From Hellea sp. (GTDB lineage: Bacteria; Pseudomonadota; Alphaproteobacteria; Caulobacterales; Maricaulaceae): 64,000 nt of DNA. The notes beneath the pieces are model-generated. The model saw nothing but the letters and a program-made list of their open reading frames with translations, ran no database searches and was not told the origin of the DNA. This document shows, piece after piece, positions 4,609 to 34,942 of the stretch. The stretch covers positions 19,026-83,025 of the forward strand of contig JAHDDX010000004.1 of the NCBI GenBank assembly GCA_020629135.1, in the 5' to 3' direction. The translations under genes were made by a program, and so were the position numbers. How positions within the stretch are numbered: position 1 is the stretch's first letter; each line of letters starts with the position of its first letter.

Positions 4609-6402
4609 GTGGGCCTAATACAAACAATAAAACGCGAAACCCATTATTTGTCAGGCGTTTTCCGGCTGCTCCGCTCCGTTAAAACCGTAGACCCGGACTC
4701 GAACAATCTAATTTGTGATGATTTAGAAGGCTGGGTGGACAAGTTTGGTAAAAACCGGGCTTTCATCGAAGATGAGCGAAGCTTCACATTTGACGAGTTT
4801 GAAACCTATGCGAACCGGGTCGCCAATTGGGCCATATCTCAAGACTGCAAAAAAGGCGATACGGTCGCTATTTTTGTGCAAAACAGGATGGAATATGTCG
4901 CCCTTTGGTTTGGATTAACAAAGGCTGGCATAGTTCCAGCCCTGATTAATTATCAATTGACAGGGCCAGCTTTGGCCCATTGCGTGAATATTTCTAATGC
5001 CAGAGTTGCAATCATCGATCACGAATTGAGTAAGGCGTGGAACAGCTCAAAAAAAGAGATTTCCAAGGACATCACACCCTATTCCGTATTCGGGGACGTC
5101 AAGGGCATGGTTCGTCTGGACGAGGCTCTTTTGGATACGCCGCCACATCGCCCCAATCGAAAAATTCGCGAGGGTATAAAAGCCTCCGATCAATGTATGA
5201 AAATGTTCACCTCCGGAACGACAGGCATGCCTAAAGCGGCAAAGGTCACCCATGTCAGAGCGCAAAATTATATGCGAGCCTTCGGCGCCGGCGCGCAAAC
5301 CAAACCATCGGATCGGATGATGATGGTATTGCCTCTCTACCACGCAACCGGCGGGCTGGTCGGCGTTGGCGCAGCCATTTCCCGGGGTGGCTCGGTTATT
5401 GTCAGACGTAAGTTTTCTGCAACCAAGTTCTGGGACGAGGTCGATCAATTTGGCGCAACATTGTTTATGTATGTCGGGGAGCTTTGCCGCTTCCTGCTTT
5501 CAACCCCTGCCCACCCCAAAGAAAGAACCCACAAATTGCGATGGATTATAGGCAATGGATTGCGCCCTGAAGTTTGGCCAGGATTTGTTGATCGGTTTAA
5601 TATCCCTCACGTTATTGAATTTTACGGCGCGACAGAGGGCAATGTTAGCCTTCTCAATGTCGATGGCCCTGTGGGCGCGGTCGGAAGGGTCGCTGATTAT
5701 CTAAAGTCGCGATTTAACATCGATATCATTCGATATGATGTGGAATCCGATACAAATGTTCGCGGCTCTGACGGTTTTTGTATACGGGCCGATATCGGCG
5801 AAGTTGGCGAGTTAATCGGTGAAATTAGATCTGACGATCCCCGCTTTCGCTTTGACGGCTATGAAACCAAAGAAGCTACCCAGAAAAAAATCCTTCGCGA
5901 CGTGTTTAAGAAAGGTGATGCCTGGTTTCGCACGGGTGACCTAATGAAGCGTGATGATCTTGGATATTACTATTTCATGGACCGCGTTGGCGATACTTTC
6001 CGGTGGAAAGCAGAAAATGTAGCAACTGGCGAAGTCGCCGCTGCGATTTCGAATTTCAAAGGCATAACTCAGGCAAATGTCTATGGTGTTCAGGTCCCAG
6101 GTTATGATGGTCGCGCCGGCATGGCATCGATAATTTGTGACAATGAACCTGATCTTAGCGCATTAAAAAAACATCTGGACGCCGCATTACCGCATTATGC
6201 GAGACCTGTATTCTTAAGGCTGTCCAAGGAAGCTGACACCACGAGCACATTTAAGTTCAAAAAAACCAACCTTGTGAAAGCCGGATTTGATCCTGAAAAA
6301 ATAACTGAACCGGTCTATGTACTTAACAACTCTGAAGACCGTTACGTGCGGATTGATTCTGATTTATATAAAGCAATCACCAATGGTGAATTTCGACTTT
6401 AG
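4609..6402 (+). CDS. long-chain acyl-CoA synthetase (FATP-like)
   Basis: MFTSGTTGMPKAAKVTH AMP-binding motif; EFYGATEGNVSLLN; FRWKAENVATGEVA of the FATP subgroup. Confidence 0.88.
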   Translation: MGLIQTIKRETHYLSGVFRLLRSVKTVDPDSNNLICDDLEGWVDKFGKNRAFIEDERSFTFDEFETYANRVANWAISQDCKKGDTVAIFVQNRMEYVALWFGLTKAGIVPALINYQLTGPALAHCVNISNARVAIIDHELSKAWNSSKKEISKDITPYSVFGDVKGMVRLDEALLDTPPHRPNRKIREGIKASDQCMKMFTSGTTGMPKAAKVTHVRAQNYMRAFGAGAQTKPSDRMMMVLPLYHATGGLVGVGAAISRGGSVIVRRKFSATKFWDEVDQFGATLFMYVGELCRFLLSTPAHPKERTHKLRWIIGNGLRPEVWPGFVDRFNIPHVIEFYGATEGNVSLLNVDGPVGAVGRVADYLKSRFNIDIIRYDVESDTNVRGSDGFCIRADIGEVGELIGEIRSDDPRFRFDGYETKEATQKKILRDVFKKGDAWFRTGDLMKRDDLGYYYFMDRVGDTFRWKAENVATGEVAAAISNFKGITQANVYGVQVPGYDGRAGMASIICDNEPDLSALKKHLDAALPHYARPVFLRLSKEADTTSTFKFKKTNLVKAGFDPEKITEPVYVLNNSEDRYVRIDSDLYKAITNGEFRL

Positions 6403-31786: not shown

Positions 31787-32950
31787 ATGAACAAGCTTAA
31801 GCGAAAGATTGGGTTTTTAGGTCTTGGTATCCTCATTTTTGCTGGCTTATATGTTTACGGCGTTTTTGTGCCGGGCACCGACAAATCTATGAACGTTGTT
31901 ACAGCCCACAATCCTTATAAAATTGCCGAAAGCACCCGCAAATTTCATGATAGTTTGACCATTGCCGATTTGCACGGCGACACTTTGATGTGGCGACGAA
32001 ATCCGGAAAAGCGCCATTCCAGAGGCCATATTGATCTTCCGAGACTACGTGAAGGCGGCGTAAATATTCAGGTCTTTAGTACGGTGACCAAAGCGCCTCG
32101 CGGACTTAATTTCGACGGCAATTCAGCGGAAGCCCCGGATAATATTACCCCGGTGGCTGTGTTGCAGTTTTGGCCGATCAAGACCTGGAATTCTATTTTC
32201 GAACGGGCTGTCTTTCAGGCTCGCCGATTACAAAAACTAGAAGCCAATCCCGATAATAAATTGGTCATAGCCCGGAACCGGGGTGACATGGATCAACCAG
32301 AGGGCACAATTATTGGTCTGTTACTGACTGAAGGTTCTCATCCGCTCGAAGGCAAAATTGAAAATATCGACCATCTGTTTGACGAGGGTTATCGCATGAT
32401 GGGGCTTCAGCATTTCTTTGACAATGAACTAGGCGGCTCTCTTCACGGCGTAAAGAAAGCCGGACTGACCGAGTTTGGGCGCGACGCGGTCCGGCATATG
32501 TGGGAAAAAGACATTATCATTGATGTGGCCCATTCATCCCAAAAAACCGTCAAGGACGTCCTCGCCATGTCTGATCGGCCGGTGGTTATTTCTCATGGCG
32601 GACTGGCCAGCCATTGCCCCAAAACAGCCAATCGCAATTTACCGGATGACATGTTGCGCGAAATCGCCCGGCGGGGCGGCCTCATTGGAATCGGTTATTT
32701 TTCTGGCGCTATTTGCGATATTTCGCCTGCAGGAATTGCTGACACGATAATTGCTGCCGTAAATCTCATGGGCGAAGATGCCGTTGCTTTAGGGTCTGAT
32801 TTTGACGGTACGGTTACAACCTCACTGGATACGTCTGAACTCGCCGCAATTACGCAGGCCCTGACCGATCACGGCGTTAGCCAGAAAACGATCCGAAAAG
32901 TCATGGGCGAAAATGTTCAAAATTTCTTGAAACAAAATCTTCCAGAATAA
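31787..32950 (+). CDS. membrane dipeptidase (peptidase M19 / renal dipeptidase-like)
   Basis: IADLHGDTLMW; DVAHSSQKTVKDVL; PVVISHGG; ALGSDFDGTV. Confidence 0.92.
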   Translation: MNKLKRKIGFLGLGILIFAGLYVYGVFVPGTDKSMNVVTAHNPYKIAESTRKFHDSLTIADLHGDTLMWRRNPEKRHSRGHIDLPRLREGGVNIQVFSTVTKAPRGLNFDGNSAEAPDNITPVAVLQFWPIKTWNSIFERAVFQARRLQKLEANPDNKLVIARNRGDMDQPEGTIIGLLLTEGSHPLEGKIENIDHLFDEGYRMMGLQHFFDNELGGSLHGVKKAGLTEFGRDAVRHMWEKDIIIDVAHSSQKTVKDVLAMSDRPVVISHGGLASHCPKTANRNLPDDMLREIARRGGLIGIGYFSGAICDISPAGIADTIIAAVNLMGEDAVALGSDFDGTVTTSLDTSELAAITQALTDHGVSQKTIRKVMGENVQNFLKQNLPE

Positions 32951-32962
32951 TTGAGTTTGGAC

Positions 32963-32999
32963 AAAAAAAATCGGTCGCGAAAACGACCAACGCGACCGA
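32963..32999 (-). terminator. minus-strand rho-independent terminator with no upstream minus CDS
   Basis: Minus strand: TCGGTCGCG-TTGGTCGTTTT-CGCGACCGA-TTTTTTTT; perfect 9-bp stem and 8-T tract. Confidence 0.85.
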
Positions 33000-33100
33000 C
33001 TTAACTACCCATTTAAATCACGATGCGCCCCGCTCGTGAATCTGTGCGAAAATGGGGTAGATGCGCCCCGAGGGATTAAGAGGAGAATAAGCCTTCGCAC
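32963..33100 (-). ncRNA. candidate intergenic sRNA (5' end unknown)
   Basis: Minus strand: GTGCGAA...TTCGCAC stem (33100-33044), TCACGA/TCGTGA stem (33039-33018), then the terminator hairpin; no ORF explains it. Confidence 0.5.
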
Positions 33101-33129
33101 TCAGCTCTCTCTCCGTACGATTCTCTCTC

Positions 33130-33142
33130 GTAATGATTACGT
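33130..33142. promoter_or_regulatory. palindrome CGTAATGATTACG
   Basis: Perfect odd palindrome in the same intergenic region. Confidence 0.35.
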
Positions 33143-33202
33143 TTTAGGTGACAGCGCTCAGTTTGAGGAGTTGCAACAAACACCGCCAACGTGCGCGTAC
33201 AG

Positions 33203-33228
33203 TTGCATTTAGTTGCATTTGGTTGCAC
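33203..33228 (+). promoter_or_regulatory. three GTTGCA repeats with 10-bp period
   Basis: aGTTGCATTTaGTTGCATTTgGTTGCAC at 33203, 33213, 33223; a fourth GTTGCA(AC) at 33171; 30 bp upstream of the HTH ORF. Confidence 0.5.
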
Positions 33229-33257
33229 GGGTAAGTTTTCTATGTTAGGCGATTTTC

Positions 33258-34139
33258 ATGGAAGTGGACAATTTCGCCGAGAAATTACAGCTTGTTTTAA
33301 AAGTTATGGTGCTCAGCCGAACCGGCTTGGCGTCCAAGTTAAACGTGGATAAATCTCTGGTCGGACGCTGGGTTTCCGGGGCCGTTCGCCCTTCTGAACA
33401 CAATCTGGCCAAACTCACGCGGTTTATCGCTGAAAATGTACCCGGTTTTACCTTATTGGACTGGGATCGCGACCTCGAAAATCTGCAAAAACGCCTTGGT
33501 GTGGCGCGTAAAAAACCTGAAGGCGGCGCGGTCGTGCCCGAAATCGGCTCTCTGTTGCCTCATGGCATTATTCAAGAAGCCAAAGGTACAATGCGTAAAC
33601 GCGGCAAAGCCTATACGGGGCTTTGGAAATCCACTCGGGCTTCCTATGATCTCCCGGGTCGATTTATCCATGACATATGCCTGACCCAACAAAGAGATGA
33701 CGGTATGTTACGGTTCCGATTGGGGGTCGAAGGCGTCCGTTATGAGGGCTGGTCGCTTTTGATGCAAAATCAGCTATTTTCGGTCGCCTGGGACTTGGAA
33801 TCTTCGGCTATGTTATTTTCAATTTTCAACGGTGTTGCCCGACATCGTCCTGAGGTTATCGATGGAATCAATCTCGCAACCCTGATGGATGCGGGCGGAT
33901 CCCCTGTTGCTTCAGCCTGTATCCTAACCCGCATTGGCGATCCAACCGGCGACGAAGATCAAGATACGGCAATGTTTGAACAAGCAATTGCCAATCTCAA
34001 CCCGCTGGCACCGGAAGGGTCAGTTTCTGCTGATATTGCCGAACACCTTCAACGCGACGTGTCAGATGGGCCGGCAGGCATTATGCGTCTTTTATTCAGC
34101 CGTTCTTTTGCCCGCGGCGCCCGATTGGGGGACAAATAA
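33258..34139 (+). CDS. helix-turn-helix (XRE-like) protein with C-terminal putative sensing domain
   Basis: LSRTGLASKLNVDKSLVGRWVSGAVRPSEHNLAKLTRFI HTH; downstream about 200 aa uncharacterised. Confidence 0.75.
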   Translation: MEVDNFAEKLQLVLKVMVLSRTGLASKLNVDKSLVGRWVSGAVRPSEHNLAKLTRFIAENVPGFTLLDWDRDLENLQKRLGVARKKPEGGAVVPEIGSLLPHGIIQEAKGTMRKRGKAYTGLWKSTRASYDLPGRFIHDICLTQQRDDGMLRFRLGVEGVRYEGWSLLMQNQLFSVAWDLESSAMLFSIFNGVARHRPEVIDGINLATLMDAGGSPVASACILTRIGDPTGDEDQDTAMFEQAIANLNPLAPEGSVSADIAEHLQRDVSDGPAGIMRLLFSRSFARGARLGDK

Positions 34140-34142
34140 GTC

Positions 34143-34859
34143 CTACAAAACGTCACCGTTCAGCTCGCTCTCCAGAAACAATAAGCGTGTTTTTAGAGCT
34201 TCGAGTTCCGGATAAAGTTTCGAGGCTTCCTGATAGGCCTCATAGGCGGCTTCGCGCCGACCCAGCTTTTCCATAATATTACCCAGTGTCCAAAGCGCGT
34301 AAAAATGCCGGGGCTCCAGAATCAAAGCCTGTTTGACTTCGTGATAGGCGCGGTTCAATTCGTCCTGGGCATAGGCCAAACGCGCTGAACGGGCCCACCC
34401 TTCCGCATAATCCGGAGACAGATTTGTCACATGATCATACATACGCCGGGCCAGATCAATATCCGCCTTTTTTTCAGCCGCCGTCCCGCGACGCAAAATC
34501 ATATTAACACTGGCTGATCCTGAATCGAGCCAGATCGCCCAGATTTCTTCGGCAACCAGATCCGCCTTTTCAGCATCAGTTTCATCTTTTAACCGCTCAA
34601 AAAGGCGGTTTAACTTGGCGGTGCGTTCCGCCTCGGGCGTAAGACGGGAATAGTCAGGTTCAGGATCTATGACATCGGGTAGAACCGTGAAGTCGTCGTC
34701 ATCTTCCGGCGTTGAACTTTCATCACCTTCGGTTTCAGGGACCGGTTCGACCGGCAATTCTTCAGGCGTAATGTCAGGAAGGGTTTCAGGCTCGACCGTT
34801 TGCGCCGTAGCGCTGACAGCCAAGAACAAAGCAAAAAATGTGATAATTGCGCGTATCAT
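34143..34859 (-). CDS. TPR-repeat periplasmic protein
   Basis: Signal peptide MIRAIITFFALFLAVSATAQ; TPR-like DLARRMYDHVTNLSPDYAEGWARSARLAYAQDELNRAYHEVKQALILEPRHFYALWTLGNI. Confidence 0.8.
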   Translation of the reverse strand: MIRAIITFFALFLAVSATAQTVEPETLPDITPEELPVEPVPETEGDESSTPEDDDDFTVLPDVIDPEPDYSRLTPEAERTAKLNRLFERLKDETDAEKADLVAEEIWAIWLDSGSASVNMILRRGTAAEKKADIDLARRMYDHVTNLSPDYAEGWARSARLAYAQDELNRAYHEVKQALILEPRHFYALWTLGNIMEKLGRREAAYEAYQEASKLYPELEALKTRLLFLESELNGDVL

Positions 34860-34942
34860 ATTGCCAGATACACTGACGCCCCCGACCATATTTGGCAAGA
34901 GGCGTTCACAGATCATAGGCCCGCGAACGGGCAAATATCAAC

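Follow-up and report, generated by a model that had tools for sequence, protein, structure and literature searches.

A terminated minus-strand element in Hellea sp. as the probable divergent transcription unit of an acquired XRE-type regulator module

What is a strong intrinsic terminator doing where no ordinary gene runs into it? The question is raised by a short minus-strand element in Hellea sp., within the 64,000-nt stretch of contig JAHDDX010000004.1 that was analysed here (the window). A preliminary description proposed that the element is a trans-acting small RNA (sRNA) whose CU-rich segment pairs with Shine-Dalgarno sequences. The analysis reported here favours a different answer: the element is probably the divergently transcribed unit in an XRE-type regulator module, and this module would have been acquired in the form of a 1.19-kb insert that separates two convergent genes. 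On this evidence we regard the element as unremarkable in kind, though interesting in its setting. The features of the locus are collected in Table 1.

Table 1 Features of the locus, in order along the window
Feature	Position	Strand	Basis
M19 dipeptidase gene	31787-32950	+	
Insert of 1192 bp (1.19 kb) separating the convergent M19 dipeptidase and TPR genes	32951-34142		Congener comparison
Intrinsic terminator: 9-bp perfect stem, 11-nt loop, T8	32963-32999	-	Sequence and window-wide stem scan
31-codon ORF, GTG start, MRRLILLLIPRGASTPFSHRFTSGAHRDLNG, putative coding	33005-33100	-	Start position relative to regulator
CU-rich segment UUAUUCUCCUCUUAAUCCCUC, predicted paired with 33114-33105	33070-33090	-	Pair probabilities
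GGAGAGAGAG, Shine-Dalgarno-like, predicted sequestered by CU-rich segment	33105-33114	-	Sequence and pair probabilities
5' hairpin UACGA-GAGAGAA-UCGUA	33116-33132	-	Pair probability 0.65-0.76
CTAAAA, candidate -10 element	33142-33147	-	Register with TCAgAA / CATAAC in relatives; suggestive only
Fourth TGCAAC, at place of conserved TGCA(C/A/T)CT element	33170-33175	-	75-column profile
Three TGCAAC repeats, 10-bp spacing (putative operator)	33202-33227	-	Homologue upstream comparison
XRE-type regulator gene, 293 aa, N-terminal HTH and beta-rich C-terminal domain	33258-34139	+	Homology; HTH_3 just under Pfam cut-off
TPR gene	34143-34934	-	

The terminator and the predicted fold of the RNA

The perfect intrinsic terminator claimed for the minus strand is present: TCGGTCGCG and CGCGACCGA, separated by 11 nt, lie at 32999-32971, and T8 follows at 32970-32963. 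On neither strand of the whole window is there another perfect stem that is 9 bp or longer and has six or more T in eight, and the terminator exceeds chance, the expectation from simulated sequence being 0.05 such terminators per 64 kb. The plus-strand side of the stem has no T run, and the terminator is therefore directed to the minus strand only. For the same reason a terminator serving the plus-strand M19 gene was ruled out. The idea of an ancestral TPR-gene terminator that has persisted was also rejected, since the two genes are too close together in congeners to accommodate one.

The other motifs of the preliminary description are likewise there as letters. They are GTGCGAA (33100-33094) and TTCGCAC (33050-33044), TCACGA...TCGTGA (33039-33018), a CUCCUC complementary to Shine-Dalgarno sequences inside 33090-33070, and two copies of CGGGGCGCATC, with minus-strand starts at 33070 and 33032. 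This 11-nt repeat is unusual (25 of 5000 shuffles).

The structure proposed for these motifs fares differently. In transcripts with the purine-rich 5' part, the nested GUGCGAA/UUCGCAC stem has a pair probability of about 0; it reaches about 0.28 only when the RNA starts at 33101. The CU-rich stretch had been taken as single-stranded, whereas about eight pairs are expected between it and GGAGAGAGAG at 33114-33105. Terminator aside, the RNA structure is no better than that of shuffled sequence: for 33137-33000, from which the terminator is excluded, the folding z-score against shuffles is -0.82 (p about 0.2), and with the terminator included the full-length transcript scores -1.55. A differently bounded stretch, 33120-32958, gives -2.1. 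By eye only, a purine-loop hairpin is apparently found in relatives at the place of the 33116-33132 hairpin.

Homology searches were also made. Rfam covariance models at the gathering threshold match one tRNA only in the window, and at permissive thresholds they yield only below-threshold noise at the locus. A DNA search of 40 relatives for a homologue of the element returned the window itself only. Membership of known anti-Shine-Dalgarno sRNA families is not supported. Of the original proposal, a short minus-strand transcript ending at the terminator is plausible, given the divergent promoter that would lie upstream (below); the anti-Shine-Dalgarno part is unsupported, the CU-rich segment being paired in cis in the predictions and neither an Rfam match nor a homologue having been found.

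These results bear on the explanation that the RNA is a functional sRNA, controlled by the regulator, which base-pairs in trans by means of its CU-rich segment or its 3' tail. Such an sRNA would be well served by the strong terminator with its U8 tail, and the CU-rich segment is present. That segment is predicted to be occupied in cis, however, the structure outside the terminator is at chance level, and Rfam and the 40 genomes provide no relative; we consider this explanation rather unlikely.

An insert carrying a regulator and its putative operators

Eight congeners have the M19 and TPR genes side by side. In seven of them the gene ends are 2-15 nt apart, and in the eighth the gap is 156 nt. 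In the window the insert in Table 1 separates the two genes, and it contains the candidate minus-strand element together with the XRE-type regulator gene. A homologue search found the regulator gene in no congener, and the congeners with syntenic flanking genes have no candidate element, the locus being empty there. Conservation of the structure at the syntenic locus, to which the preliminary description had looked, could not be shown, as there is nothing at that locus in the syntenic congeners. Since the M19 and TPR genes abut in congeners, none of which carries the regulator, the insert is most simply a gain, and the 1.19 kb would most simply have been acquired horizontally with the regulator. 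The terminator would thus be part of the insert and not an old terminator of a neighbour. Plasmid and viral contigs gave no match, and hence no sign of a plasmid or phage carrier. As a separate observation on the congeners, the match to a lytic transglycosylase homologue in one of them (L060; G004, contig C93) is interrupted by a single TAA, which may reflect a broken gene copy or an error in the assembly.

The C-terminal domain of the regulator is predicted to be beta-rich and belongs to no Pfam family. Comparison with solved structures gave weak lipocalin-like matches, to the C-terminal part only and none with E below 0.001. The C-terminal domain might be a ligand-binding part. A contig scan with the single regulator protein as query gave no match, and the same search for relatives using the alignment instead of the single protein gave 84 relatives. 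The homologues in the alignment, which have both the HTH and the C-terminal domain, are 47-60% identical over their full length. Their distribution is patchy, with full-length homologues in 14 of 137 family genomes and 26 of 398 order genomes. The named homologues point to an uncultured member of the Caulobacterales as the source of the window, in the family to which Maricaulis, Marinicauda and Hyphobacterium also belong. The window regulator clusters with Parvularculaceae homologues (support 100/99).

The TGCAAC repeats in the window are 30, 40, 50 and 82 bp from the regulator start. In nearly all of the closer homologues the start codon has TGCAAC upstream of it at distances of about 30, 40-41 and 50-52 bp, with a TGCAnCT in addition at about 70-84 bp. 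Of the 22 homologues examined, 21 have a TGCAAC that begins 29-31 nt from the start codon of the regulator, and most of these have further copies about 10 and 21 bp on. Of the traits of the module, a regulator homologue, TGCAAC at about 30/40/51 bp and TGCAnCT at about 82 bp are found in the window. Of the 137 family genomes, 7 contain the exact triple repeat; each of these is one of the 14 regulator carriers, and a reversed control gave none. Six of the seven sites are the regulators' own upstream regions, so these counts partly reflect shared ancestry and are not independent events.

A profile of the promoter region was built from relatives, leaving the window out. When all 75 columns of this profile are used, the window site has the highest score among 127,852 positions, with 10.2 bits against 4.5 for the next. 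The downstream half of the profile alone does not single out the -10 region of the window, and the assignment of CTAAAA (33147-33142) as -10 element is therefore made by register only. From these sequence comparisons, the region upstream of the terminator is judged to be a divergent promoter/operator of an XRE-type regulator module. We infer that the regulator would bind the TGCAAC repeats at 33202-33227 and 33170-33175, and that when bound it would control the minus-strand promoter as well as its own gene. Transcription from that promoter would start near 33137 and stop at the terminator at 32963, giving an RNA of about 175 nt.

The earlier statement that no minus-strand gene feeds the terminator needs qualification. 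It holds for ordinary genes, but there is a 31-codon ORF with a Shine-Dalgarno-like sequence, and the conserved divergent operator/promoter lies directly upstream.

Another conceivable role for the terminator is as a roadblock only, halting stray antisense transcription from the regulator promoter region into M19, with the RNA as a by-product. The terminator does point to the 3' end of the plus-strand M19 gene, about 20 nt beyond its stop, and congeners show no such terminator. The conserved divergent operator/promoter layout, on the other hand, suggests purposeful transcription, and we find a mere roadblock improbable.

The divergent position in relatives and in the window

In most Maricaulaceae and Caulobacteraceae homologues, the divergent position is occupied by a gene that begins 133-195 nt from the regulator start, is preceded by a Shine-Dalgarno sequence and encodes a signal-peptide-like N-terminus. 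These secreted proteins (L075-L093) fall into groups with LLLPA(V/I)Q or VHDI(I/L)(V/I)TSN motifs. A Pfam search with three of them found no family, with one marginal FG-GAP match.

The divergent secreted-protein gene is absent at the window locus, where there is only the 31-codon ORF, and it is absent in all three sampled Parvularculaceae. In one of these, the cultured strain Parvularcula mediterranea (L073), a 17-bp stem followed by GCTTTTCT is found 288 nt from the regulator start, compared with 287-291 nt in the window. Two of the three have no canonical terminator in the divergent region, and the Parvularculaceae divergent regions have no evident sequence in common with the window. A loose terminator scan of the homologues was noisy, 101 of 150 random stretches also passing. 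Two close relatives in Maricaulis offer what reads as a parallel case of divergent-gene shrinkage: L085 has a divergent gene of 147 aa, whereas that of L087 has only 62 aa and is followed by a terminator.

The start of the 31-codon ORF has GGAG, 10 nt and then GTG, and is 157 nt from the regulator ATG, a distance that falls inside the relatives' range for divergent genes. The 31-residue sequence has no similarity to the relatives' divergent secreted proteins, and no remnant of the secreted family was found. In the predicted fold the CU-rich segment masks the start of this ORF, the only one in the RNA, which would leave the RNA untranslated, weakly translated or conditionally translated.

The ORF could still be real, the RNA being a tiny mRNA for a small protein of 31 residues, with the hairpin of Shine-Dalgarno and CU-rich sequences restraining its translation. 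A GGAG precedes the GTG by 10 nt, and the GTG stands where the relatives' secreted protein starts; the N-terminus, MRRLILLLI, is basic and then hydrophobic, and the ORF ends just ahead of the terminator. The hydrophobic core is only about six residues, however, the start codon is GTG, the internal copies of the 11-nt repeat are in different frames, and there is no homologue among the divergent proteins. We give the small protein a slender chance.

The best reading is that the minus-strand transcript is an eroded or minimal target gene under regulator control. The secreted-protein gene, which is at this position in most relatives, would have gone or shrunk in the window and in its Parvularculaceae relatives. 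The remnant here would be a short RNA that ends at the terminator and has no more than the 31-codon ORF, the Shine-Dalgarno sequence of which is folded onto the CU-rich segment.

The same operator layout occurs elsewhere. On another contig of this genome (L160), TGCAAC-N4-TGCAAC with GTTGCAAC about 31 bp on precedes a secreted-protein gene (L160:1501-2115; G000 contig C88, about 5254-5868), which is absent from nine congeners. Its protein is locally similar to Caulobacter divergent proteins, at an E of about 3e-6 that is weak because the set was small and composition correction was off. In another genome (G127, L158:1501-1527) a triple TGCAAC and TGCACCT precede a secreted-protein gene away from its regulator gene. 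These two layouts support the repeats as the regulator's operators. The L160 secreted-protein gene is a likely target of the window regulator, and the arrangement suggests that in this genome regulator and secreted target have come apart. Further TGCAAC pairs in Parvularculaceae (L168, L169) adjoin genes that look unrelated, and were taken as chance.

Such a target with the same operators elsewhere in the genome, and the lack of a protein gene in the divergent place of the regulator's closest relatives, are the two further points that favour an sRNA acting in trans. In a more specific form, the divergent secreted gene would have been replaced, in the window and the Parvularculaceae subclade, by a functional sRNA under the same operator, which adjusts the secreted target now elsewhere in the genome. 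This seems to us unlikely. More generally, the transcript may have a regulatory role as an RNA.

Comparison with known systems

The locus shows how what looks like a convincing sRNA candidate can be what is left of a regulator/target module. The module, with its XRE-type regulator, TGCAAC operators and secreted proteins outside any Pfam family, is apparently undescribed in Caulobacterales. If the transcript is functional, a protein target would have been exchanged for an RNA under a conserved operator.

The element has in common with the anti-Shine-Dalgarno sRNAs of Rhizobiales (PMC3927594) that it is short, CU-rich, complementary to Shine-Dalgarno sequences and alphaproteobacterial. The rhizobial RFMSmelA075/A099 carry CCUCCUCCC in the loops of three or four hairpins (PMC3927594). 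The window element differs from them in having only one CUCCUC, predicted to be paired with GGAGAGAGAG and not in a hairpin loop, and no repeated hairpins. The CCUCCUC(CC) motif of the CCUCCUCCC family is absent, the window reading UUCUCCUCUU. A Rho-independent terminator with a U tail, as expected of Hfq-type sRNAs, is present.

The DicA-controlled dicBF operon of the E. coli Qin prophage yields the DicF sRNA and the small protein DicB (PMC10448788). The likeness would lie in an HTH repressor with repeated operators close by, which controls the unit next to it, one that yields an sRNA and a small protein. The window regulator is of another family (293 aa, with its own C-terminal domain), its operators are different and no prophage context was found; the resemblance would be one of layout at most, and not kinship.

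The closest comparison is with the divergent modules of Caulobacterales (L075-L093). Unlike them, the window has no secreted-protein gene and its unit would end at a terminator after about 175 nt. It shares with them the regulator, the TGCAAC repeats, their spacing and the position of the divergent start.
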